This document shows positions 17,190 to 46,840 of a DNA stretch of 64,000 nucleotides, one piece after another (positions within the stretch are counted from its first letter, which is position 1; each line of letters opens with the position of its first letter). The stretch covers positions 62,001-126,000 of the forward strand of contig CAJWLF010000001.1 in assembly GCA_913043205.1 (NCBI GenBank), read 5' to 3'. A program made the translations under genes and the position numbers. Under the pieces are notes generated by a model, which was not told the origin of the DNA, did no database searches, and worked only from the letters and a program-made list of their open reading frames with translations. The DNA is from an uncultured Chloroflexota bacterium (lineage in GTDB: Bacteria; Chloroflexota; UBA11872; VXNJ01).

Positions 17190-17345
17190 AGCGCACATGT
17201 GCTCTGCAACCCGTCTCCTGGCTTACGACTCAATTGTTCTCCGGCCCTTCCCATCCCTTAGGACAGTGGTTATGCCTGAAAACTTGCCGATTACAGTGGC
17301 GCGCCCGCGTCGGATTTTCACCGATCTTCCGAAAATCAAACTTGT
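17190..17345 (-). promoter_or_regulatory. Cobalamin (AdoCbl) riboswitch
   Basis: Read on the minus strand the region contains, in order, GGTGAAAATCCGACGCGGGC, GCCACTG, GGGATGGGAAGGG and the B12 box AAGCCAGGAGACGGGTTGC, the conserved blocks of the AdoCbl riboswitch. The btuF start is about 100 bases further on. The expression platform is less clear: a TCCC/GGGA hairpin lies at about 17140-17160. High B12 should lower expression of the btuF-btuC-btuD-kinase-enolase unit. It accounts for most of the 346-base gap before the next gene. Confidence 0.95.
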
Positions 17346-17433
17346 GTTTGAATTAGCGTTGCAATGCAATAATATTCATCTGCCCTAGTGTACATTGTCG
17401 ATGGAATCAAATCTTGTTTTGCAAGGTTTTGGT

Positions 17434-18683: not shown

Positions 18684-18759
18684 GCCCACGTAGCTCAGGA
18701 GGTAGAGCGCGTTCTTGGTAAGAACGAGGTCTCCGGTTCAACCCCGGACGTGGGCTCCA
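18684..18759 (+). tRNA. tRNA-Thr (anticodon GGU)
   Basis: Acceptor GCCCACG/CGTGGGC, D-arm GCTC..GAGC, anticodon stem CGTTC/GAACG with loop TTGGTAA (anticodon GGT), T-arm TCCGG-TTCAACC-CCGGA, discriminator T and an encoded CCA (18757-18759). Confidence 0.96.
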
Positions 18760-42712: not shown

Positions 42713-45043
42713 TCAGCAATCGTTAGTACGTAGTTTGCGAGCAGCGGCAACCATGTGCCTCAGTGCTGGTTTCACTTCTTCCCAATTTCTTGTTTTGAGC
42801 CCGCAGTCCGGGTTAACCCACAGCTGATTAGGTGGTATAACCTTTAGTGCCCTAGCGAGCAGGTCAGACATCTCGGCAGTTTCCGGGATTCTTGGAGAGT
42901 GTATGTCCCAAACTCCTGGACCTATTGCGTTCGGGTAGTTGAACTCGAGAAATGCGTCCAGTAATTCCATTCGTGAGCGGGAGCTTTCTATACTGATGAC
43001 ATCAGCGTCCATGGCTGCTATTGCGTTAATGATGTCATTAAATTCGGCATAGCACATATGCGTATGTATTTGGGTTTCGTCAGCTACAGCAGAGGCTGCT
43101 AAACGGAAACTACCTACTGCCCACTCCAGGTAGGAATTCCAATCGGATTCACGAAGTGGCAATCCCTCTCTAATGGCAGGCTCATCAATTTGTATTATCC
43201 CAATACCGGCTTTTTCAAGATCCGATACCTCGTCCCGTATAGCCATTGCGATTTGATAGCACGTGTCTGACCTGGGTTGGTCGTCACGAACGAATGACCA
43301 CTGTAAAATGGTCACTGGACCAGTCAGCATGCCCTTCACTGGTTTGTCAGACAATGATTGGGCGTAGACAGTCCAATCCACAGTCATCGGCTCCGGCCTG
43401 CTTACATCGCCGAATATTACCGGAGGTCGTACGCAACGAGAACCGTAGCTTTGCACCCATCCATTTGAAGTGAAGGCTATCCCTTCCATTTGTTCGCCAA
43501 AGTATTCGACCATGTCGGTGCGTTCGGATTCTCCATGAACCAGGACGTCAAGCCCTAAGTCATTCTGAATAGCGATCGTGTTACGTATTTCTTCACGTAA
43601 GAATGACTGGTATTCCTCGGTAGTGCTATTGCCACGCTTGAAAGCTGATCGAGCCTTACGTACGGCACTAGTCTGAGGGAAGGACCCAATGGTAGTAGTA
43701 GGGAAATCTGGCAATTCAAGCTTTTGTTGCTGCGCTTCGGCTCGCAAATGGTAAGGGCTTTTTCTATCGAGCATTGACTCTTCTACGGCTGCTAATCGCT
43801 TTTTGACATCTGGATTGTGAATCCGTGTGGATGATGACCGAGTGGATAACGATAAGGTGTTTTGCGCCAAGTAATCGGCTACGGAATCTCGCCCACTATT
43901 TATTGCCTGGCAAACTATTTTGATTTCATCCAATTTCTGCGCAGCAAAACTCAACCAATCTTTCAATTCAGGCTCCATCGAAGTTTCCAGTTCTAGGTCT
44001 ACTGGGCTGTGAAGTAGTGAGCAAGACGGTCCGATAAAAAGACGTTCATTACCTCGATGGGTGGCAATACTCTCAGCCGTAGCGATAGCTCGAGTCAAAT
44101 CGGTCTTCCATATGTTTCGTCCGTCTATTAGCCCAAGTGATAGCCAGCGATTGTGAGACACTTCAGTTGCTACCTGGGTGGCTTGGTCTGGAGATCTGAC
44201 GAGGTCTATGTGCAAACCTTCGACTGACAACTCATTCGTCAATGACAAGTTTTCTCTAAGGTCGCCAAAATAGCTGGTCAGCAACTTGTTGACTTGAGTA
44301 GAAGCACCAATATAGTCATAGGCTGTTTTATAGGCGTGTTGTGTTCTCTCGTCCAAGTCCATGACTAAATATGGTTCGTCAATTTGTATCCAAGCTGCTC
44401 CGGCTTGTTCTAACTGCTTGATCACTTGTACGTATTCAGGAAGTAGCCGTTCTAATAGGTCTAGAGGGCTGAAATTTGGCTGCATTGGCTTTCCGGCCAT
44501 CAGAAAAGTGATAGGGCCTAACAGGACAGGCCTGGTAGCGATGCCAAGTTGTTCCGCTTCTAGAAATTGTGACAATGGTTTTTTGGGATTGGCTTCGAAC
44601 CTAGTGTTTTCATCAAATTCGGGAACTATGTAATGATAGTTCGTATCGAACCACTTGGTCATTTCCATCGCCGGTATACCCGAAGTCTCTGTTCCATATT
44701 GATAGCCACGGGCCATAGCAAAATACTTATCTAACGGGTTTCCGGCTAGTGCTTGGAATCTATCTGGTATAGCACCAAGCATACTGGCCATGTCTAGTAC
44801 CTGATCATAAAACGAGAAGTCGTTGCTAGGGATATGGTCCAGGCCAGCATCTTTCTGTAATAGCCAGTTGTTTGAACGAAGACTAGCTGCGGTTGCAATT
44901 AGATCTGACTCCGGGTTTCTGCCAGACCAATAACGTTCCAATGCCCGTTTTAATTCTCGATTGGGACCTATCCTAGGGTAACCAAGGTTGGATGAGAGAG
45001 CCATGCGAATACTGCTTTCGTGTTTTTGTGGGATAGTCCTCAT
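42713..45043 (-). CDS. metE: Cobalamin-independent methionine synthase MetE
   Basis: 776 residues, or 763 from ATG 45004, where LGYPRIGPNRELKRALERYW begins as in the family. It has the duplicated barrel of MetE and the zinc site in the C-terminal half (HMCYAEF, Glu in ISIESSRSR, NPDCGLKTR). It transfers a methyl group from methyltetrahydrofolate polyglutamate to homocysteine without B12. A B12 importer is also encoded here, but no cobalamin riboswitch precedes metE. The 216-base upstream gap has a CATATA/TATATG repeat (45086-45106) and a 10-base tandem GGGTTACTGA (45221-45240). Confidence 0.94.
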   Translation of the reverse strand: MRTIPQKHESSIRMALSSNLGYPRIGPNRELKRALERYWSGRNPESDLIATAASLRSNNWLLQKDAGLDHIPSNDFSFYDQVLDMASMLGAIPDRFQALAGNPLDKYFAMARGYQYGTETSGIPAMEMTKWFDTNYHYIVPEFDENTRFEANPKKPLSQFLEAEQLGIATRPVLLGPITFLMAGKPMQPNFSPLDLLERLLPEYVQVIKQLEQAGAAWIQIDEPYLVMDLDERTQHAYKTAYDYIGASTQVNKLLTSYFGDLRENLSLTNELSVEGLHIDLVRSPDQATQVATEVSHNRWLSLGLIDGRNIWKTDLTRAIATAESIATHRGNERLFIGPSCSLLHSPVDLELETSMEPELKDWLSFAAQKLDEIKIVCQAINSGRDSVADYLAQNTLSLSTRSSSTRIHNPDVKKRLAAVEESMLDRKSPYHLRAEAQQQKLELPDFPTTTIGSFPQTSAVRKARSAFKRGNSTTEEYQSFLREEIRNTIAIQNDLGLDVLVHGESERTDMVEYFGEQMEGIAFTSNGWVQSYGSRCVRPPVIFGDVSRPEPMTVDWTVYAQSLSDKPVKGMLTGPVTILQWSFVRDDQPRSDTCYQIAMAIRDEVSDLEKAGIGIIQIDEPAIREGLPLRESDWNSYLEWAVGSFRLAASAVADETQIHTHMCYAEFNDIINAIAAMDADVISIESSRSRMELLDAFLEFNYPNAIGPGVWDIHSPRIPETAEMSDLLARALKVIPPNQLWVNPDCGLKTRNWEEVKPALRHMVAAARKLRTNDC

Positions 45044-46302: not shown

Positions 46303-46647
46303 CTATTCTAATTCTTCAAACAGCTCTTGTTTGAACCCGATTAGTAAATTCTTGCCTTGCTTCGTTATTGGCCGTTTGATCAAAGTTGGATGTTTCAACA
46401 TCAATTCTAATAATGCATCTTCAGAAAGCGTCAAGTTAGCTAACCCAAGGTCCTTGAATGCTTTGGAACGCTTACTAAGTAAGTCATTGATTCCACTAGG
46501 CGGGATTAGGGATTCAAGTTCGACTCGACTAAGCGGATATTTAAATATTTCGACCGCTTTATAATCGATGCCTTTTCTGTCCAGAATGGCTTTGCCTTTT
46601 CGGCATGAAGTTCAAGTGCTTTTGTGATAAAAGTATGTTTTTGGCAT
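46303..46647 (-). CDS. ArsC/Spx-like thioredoxin-fold protein with in-frame TGA at the CxxC motif (candidate selenoprotein)
   Basis: From ATG 46647 to TAG 46303, 114 codons, the normal length of the ArsC/Spx/YffB family. The N-terminus reads YHKST-TGA-TSCRK, so TGA (46614-46612, codon 12) occupies the first Cys of the CxxC redox motif (compare SCTSCRK in Spx). The rest is intact: LDRKGIDYKAVEIFKYPLS, SGINDLLSKRSKAFKDLG and the family-specific LIKRPITKQG, LLIGFK near the end. AAGGTG lies six bases before the ATG. The frame has no later start that would save the protein. Selenocysteine is the favoured reading; a broken gene or a base error is the alternative. Confidence 0.78.
46570..46590 (-). 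promoter_or_regulatory. Candidate bacterial SECIS hairpin after the TGA codon
   Basis: In the mRNA, GCC-A-TTCT-GGAC-AGAA-AA-GGC folds as a two-part stem (3 bp, 1x2 internal loop, 4 bp) with a 4-base loop beginning GG. The first loop G is 30 bases after the TGA, within the range usually given for bacterial SECIS elements. A longer closure by ATGCC/GGCAT is possible. The stem is modest. Confidence 0.5.
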
Positions 46648-46840
46648 ATTGAACACCTTAAAGTCTCAATTTCCACAGATTCGTGGATCCTCTCGGCTAT
46701 TGTCTCCTACTAGTGGGTGGGTTGGCAATCTACCTGGTTGTATGGGAGGCTTCTTTCTGTAACGACCTGATAATACGTAGTGTTTAACAAGATATTAGTA
46801 GTTTGTTGAGTGAGTTCTCGTATACTGGTTGGTGAAATTC

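Follow-up and report, generated by a model that had tools for sequence, protein, structure and literature searches.

Can a bacterial gene be intact when a stop codon lies in its active site? The question is raised by a minus-strand locus within a 64,000-nucleotide (nt) stretch of DNA from an uncultured Chloroflexota bacterium, referred to here as the window, in which a TGA triplet falls exactly on the first cysteine of a CxxC motif. When TGA is translated as selenocysteine (Sec, U), the locus encodes a protein of 114 residues (MPKTYFYHKSTUTSCRKGKAIL...FKQELFEELE), in which codon 12 is the sole TGA, TAG is the stop and the active-site motif reads UTSC (Table 1). The first-pass annotation, made from the letters alone, had described a 114-codon frame with a single TGA on the first cysteine of CxxC, and both the translation and the match to the ArsC family bear this out. 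Its description of the ribosome site as good is fair, yet the AAGGTG of the window is just a moderate site; many relatives carry the canonical AAGGAGG. The gene, apparently broken by a stop, is almost certainly intact and encodes a redox protein with an active-site selenocysteine. Gene callers that take TGA as a stop will miss or truncate it.

Table 1. Positions of the gene, its recoding features and the Sec machinery genes.
Feature	Position	Strand	Details and basis
Selenoprotein gene, Spx/ArsC-like	46303..46647	-	ATG, 114 codons plus TAG, TGA read as Sec; family matches, homologues, AlphaFold
In-frame TGA, codon 12, Sec codon, first position of CxxC	46612..46614	-	TGA in 19/24 order genomes (window's included) and 41/45 matching phylum genomes
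Codon 15 TGC, predicted resolving Cys of UxxC	46603..46605	-	Invariant in alignments A1 and A3
Shine-Dalgarno-like AAGGTG	46654..46659	-	Ends 6 nt 5′ of ATG; sequence
Candidate SECIS hairpin GCC-A-UUCU-GGAC-AGAA-AA-GGC, loop GGAC at +29	46570..46590	-	Pair probabilities 0.77-0.95; tentative
Second predicted hairpin UGCC-GAAAA-GGCA, loop 10 nt past UGA	46593..46605	-	Nearer than the published SECIS model allows
selA	C3:76785-78116		518.8 bits (cut-off 267.9)
selB	C15:9598-11460		352 bits (cut-off 242)
selD (L037)	G000:C5:28462-29379		400.9 bits
tRNA-Sec, anticodon TCA	C14:17795-17887		70.4 bits

The read-through frame matches Pfam ArsC over residues 7-112 with an E-value of 7.5e-23 (81.1 bits, cut-off 24), and the best-fitting family model is NCBIfam TIGR01617 (arsC_related, the Spx/MgsR subfamily), the cut-off of which it exceeds (85.1 bits against 75.05). 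Judged by sequence, family matches that run through the TGA in this way are far beyond chance. The AlphaFold model of the protein has a mean pLDDT of 92.4, and its best structural match in the PDB is Bacillus subtilis Spx (1z3e_A; E-value of 5.9e-10, TM score of 0.85), followed by ArsC-like and YffB proteins; a sequence search of the PDB also returned Spx at the top. The encoded protein consists of one thioredoxin-fold domain, which belongs to the ArsC/Spx superfamily, and no second ArsC-family gene was found in the window's genome (1.87 Mb in 32 contigs, 93.6% complete).

Within this superfamily, the protein could be an ArsC, the arsenate reductase linked to glutaredoxin, in which Sec has replaced the catalytic cysteine. 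The Pfam match favours such an enzyme, as do R60 and R92, which we take to be the equivalents of ArsC R60 and R94: both are invariant in alignment A1, and R92 is also invariant in alignment A3. However, the protein scores 60.9 bits with the arsC equivalog TIGR00014, well under its cut-off of 106, its alignment to Escherichia coli ArsC ends at residue 95 and leaves R107, presumably the third arginine of that enzyme, unmatched, and a scan of the immediate neighbours revealed no ars genes. Moreover, the ArsC selenoproteins found in the Sargasso Sea, which belong to the same superfamily and also have Sec at the catalytic cysteine, are characterized by UxxS (PMC1088965), whereas the window protein has UxxC. 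An identity as an arsenate reductase is not supported at the sequence level and we consider it unlikely, and the equivalog score agrees with the caution of the first-pass annotation that the product is not necessarily an arsenate reductase.

The structural matches raise another candidate, slightly less probable still: a selenocysteine Spx, that is, a redox-sensing regulator that would bind the α-CTD of RNA polymerase and use a Sec–Cys bond as its switch. The likeness to Spx extends over the fold, the sequence, the position of the CxxC motif and the subfamily model, and G52, R60, K62 and R92 of the window protein align with residues that are important in B. subtilis Spx (PMC2801614). However, Sec stands in place of the first cysteine, and the protein remains far below the cut-offs of the Spx-specific models (70.3 against 123, 63.6 against 159 and 46.3 against 152 bits). 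Furthermore, the α-CTD contact G52, although present in the window protein, is not kept in its TGA-containing relatives, K62 is gone in most of them, and R60 and R92 are common to ArsC-type members too. On the side of the polymerase, the α-CTD Tyr263 site is required for Spx binding in B. subtilis (PMC2801614), and the host α-CTD has a leucine at this site. Membership in the functional, RNA polymerase-binding Spx group is thus not supported by these comparisons, and a selenium-based Spx-type switch, in which an oxidant-responsive Sec–Cys bond would tune transcription, appears more doubtful again.

The function suggested by the sequence is instead probably that of a small selenol/thiol oxidoreductase. 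The neighbours of the gene are a DtxR-type regulator and accompanying ABC transporter genes, which lie on the opposite strand, and a class A β-lactamase-like protein downstream; no conserved neighbour that would name a substrate was found, and the flanking genes differ between groups of relatives. In family f48 (L066 and L070), for instance, an endonuclease-IV-like gene comes next after the TGA gene, and in family f2 (L017 and L031), a zinc alcohol-dehydrogenase-like gene lies directly 5′ and an RraA-like gene 3′ of the TGA gene, all of these neighbours being named by reading the sequence.

The TGA codon is conserved well beyond the window. Protein-level matches were found in 18 of the 24 genomes of the order, the window's own included, and every one has a single TGA, at codon 12; in a 19th genome (G001), the match is cut by unread bases but TGA stands at codon 12 nonetheless. 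The order members keep it at protein identities to the window as low as 32-41%. In the class, TGA is also found in two genomes of a third family, and cysteine in two genomes of a fourth. A draw of 400 genomes from the phylum yielded 45 matches at an E-value of 1e-15, comprising 41 with TGA, three with cysteine (G026, G030 and G204) and one in G266, and the 41:3 ratio may lean towards Sec because the search profile was made from Sec members. In the G266 locus (L086, contig C10), the first third, including the active site, is unalignable, and this copy is possibly frameshifted, decayed or misassembled. A cysteine homologue also occurs in Litchfieldella (L005). Whole-genome searches guided by kinship were far more productive than a contig search with the window protein alone, which returned one distant cysteine relative, from a halomonad. 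In a tree built from the 114 amino acids, good support is confined to 13 of the 40 inner branches, too few to tell whether Sec or cysteine is ancestral.

A homologue search had been proposed with the original prediction, and it shows that the relatives retain both the TGA and the frame downstream of it. In ten close members, the codons 3′ of the TGA have Ka/Ks values of 0.065-0.23, indicating that the region past the TGA is translated and constrained in those relatives. Since 18 further genomes of the order share the TGA at this codon, neither a sequencing error nor a nonsense mutation of recent date can explain it in the window. A pseudogene or an error in the sequence would account for a single TGA that breaks an otherwise full-length frame, but this very improbable reading is refuted by the recurrence of TGA at that codon in 41 genomes from many families and by the purifying selection on the downstream frame, and it is also at odds with the Sec machinery in the genome.

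The selenocysteine reading further calls for a host that can insert Sec, and selA, selB, selD and the tRNA-Sec gene, the four genes named for a check in the first-pass annotation, are all present in the window's genome (Table 1). The selD gene is itself a selenoprotein gene, with an in-frame TGA in AGUGCK followed by the hairpin GCUCAG-GUU-CUGAGC. TGA terminates 18 of the 47 long open reading frames in the window and is therefore a normal stop, so that the code is not reassigned and recoding is site-specific. A reassignment of UGA to an ordinary amino acid such as tryptophan or glycine, to which we assign next to no probability, could explain an in-frame TGA inside an intact gene, but it is refuted by this use of TGA as a stop, and the TGA-containing genes that we recognized, the present gene and selD, both carry it at Sec-type sites; the remaining TGA-interrupted frames in the window do not have a recognizable selenoprotein look. 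Across the class, tRNA-Sec was detected in 20 of the 21 genomes with the TGA gene, the exception being G017, which is 86% complete and split into about 210 contigs, and in 14 of the 20 genomes without it. In G022 and G023, which belong to the same family as the window's genome, we found neither tRNA-Sec nor a homologue of the gene, which suggests that the Sec trait was lost in part of this family.

Bacterial Sec insertion is assisted by a SECIS hairpin, for which a published model places the loop 16-37 nt past the UGA, with a G within the first two loop bases and an energy of −7.5 kcal/mol or lower (PMC13188914). We treated covariation as the decisive test of a hairpin, above folding energy. 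In 21 TGA members from the class and the phylum, an 8-base pair stem with a three-base loop starting with G lies 23 nt past the UGA, with 86.9% of its positions paired. This hairpin shows 23 double-sided compensations, compared with 8.6 ± 1.9 in shuffled alignments, a value reached by none of 500 shuffles, and its pairing becomes far worse in all versions slid by one to three columns. The sister family f2 has a different hairpin, AAGGCC-CGUGC-GGCCUU, 18 nt past the UGA, and its member L031 has AAAGCC-CGUGC-GGCUUU, a compensatory change. By contrast, no comparable hairpin was found in the four cysteine relatives.

For the window itself, the candidate hairpin has the geometry of the published model, which in most TGA relatives is found together with covariation, but its isolated energy is −3.8 kcal/mol and thus weaker than the published threshold. 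L015, a member of the window's own family, has a stronger hairpin at +29 (CCCUGCU-GGAU-AGCAGGG), and a comparison of the two sequences by eye reveals one compensatory pair at the same offset, from G-C to U-A. Folding energies are modestly informative: relative to synonymous recoding, the region 3′ of the TGA has a z-score of only −1.2 in the window, and the mean is −1.17 for the 41 TGA rows and −0.25 for the four cysteine rows. The hairpins thus occur at three offsets past the UGA in homologous coding sequence, at about 29 nt (L015 and the window), 18 nt (L016-L031) and 23 nt (L061-L087), and the SECIS-type element appears to have been moved or re-made inside one protein family. The 41 Sec members provide a compact natural experiment, in which the recoding hairpin shifts and the protein is conserved.

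Together, the frame, the conserved catalytic TGA, the Sec machinery genes, the selection downstream and the covarying hairpins in most TGA homologues support a real selenoprotein. We put the probability at roughly 0.93 that UGA codon 12 is read by SelB and Sec-tRNA(Sec) with the aid of a hairpin, yielding a selenol/thiol oxidoreductase of the ArsC/Spx fold. In the proposed mechanism, SelB with Sec-tRNA(Sec) would decode UGA codon 12 as selenocysteine, and the hairpin just 3′ of the UGA would assist this decoding. Sec12 may then attack a disulfide, a peroxide or a similar oxidized substrate, Cys15 would resolve the resulting selenenyl-sulfide, and recharging of the protein would fall to the thioredoxin or glutathione system. 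The Sec genes, together with the TGA and the frame kept in the relatives, support the earlier claim of a Sec-containing redox protein; Sec insertion itself, the redox activity and the substrate are what we infer.

UxxC-type ArsC-like selenoproteins have been predicted earlier, and the window gene is a further example. The GOS study of marine metagenomes described an 'arsenate reductase 2' selenoprotein family (cd03032) with UxxC, represented by 42 Sec and 238 cysteine sequences (PMC2398784). The window protein resembles it in its superfamily, its UxxC motif (UTSC) and its predicted Sec and, likened by description, may be the same form. The balance differs, the GOS family being mostly of the cysteine type, whereas the phylum searched here, with the Sec-built profile, gave 41 TGA and three cysteine members. 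ArsC-like selenoproteins in marine data sets, mentioned in the first-pass annotation, are thus on record (PMC1088965; PMC2398784). An arsenate-reductase-like selenoprotein with UxxC is also listed in a review (PMC9312934), and the NCBI family NF041106 ('ArsC family (seleno)protein', ArsC_rel_Se_1) is listed as an 'arsenate reductase-like protein' with the same motif (PMC13188914). NF041106 is likewise an ArsC-like family with Sec and cysteine members, but the window protein scores 43.4 bits against its cut-off of 85, and the best of 28 relatives reaches an E-value of 8.1e-15, presumably also below the cut-off. On these scores, the group of the window protein is a branch separate from NF041106, and automatic annotation may overlook it, since the window protein does not reach the threshold of that model. 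As far as the literature searched shows, what is new is the support for the hairpins from covariation, the three offsets at which they lie and how prevalent Sec is in the phylum.

Elsewhere in the window, a strong cobalamin riboswitch (17191-17378, minus strand, 85.7 bits) lies 5′ of a minus-strand gene cluster, and the same window encodes a cobalamin-independent methionine synthase (42713-45043). ARAGORN predicts a tRNA-Thr(GGT) at 18684-18759 on the plus strand, which has no Rfam call at the gathering score.
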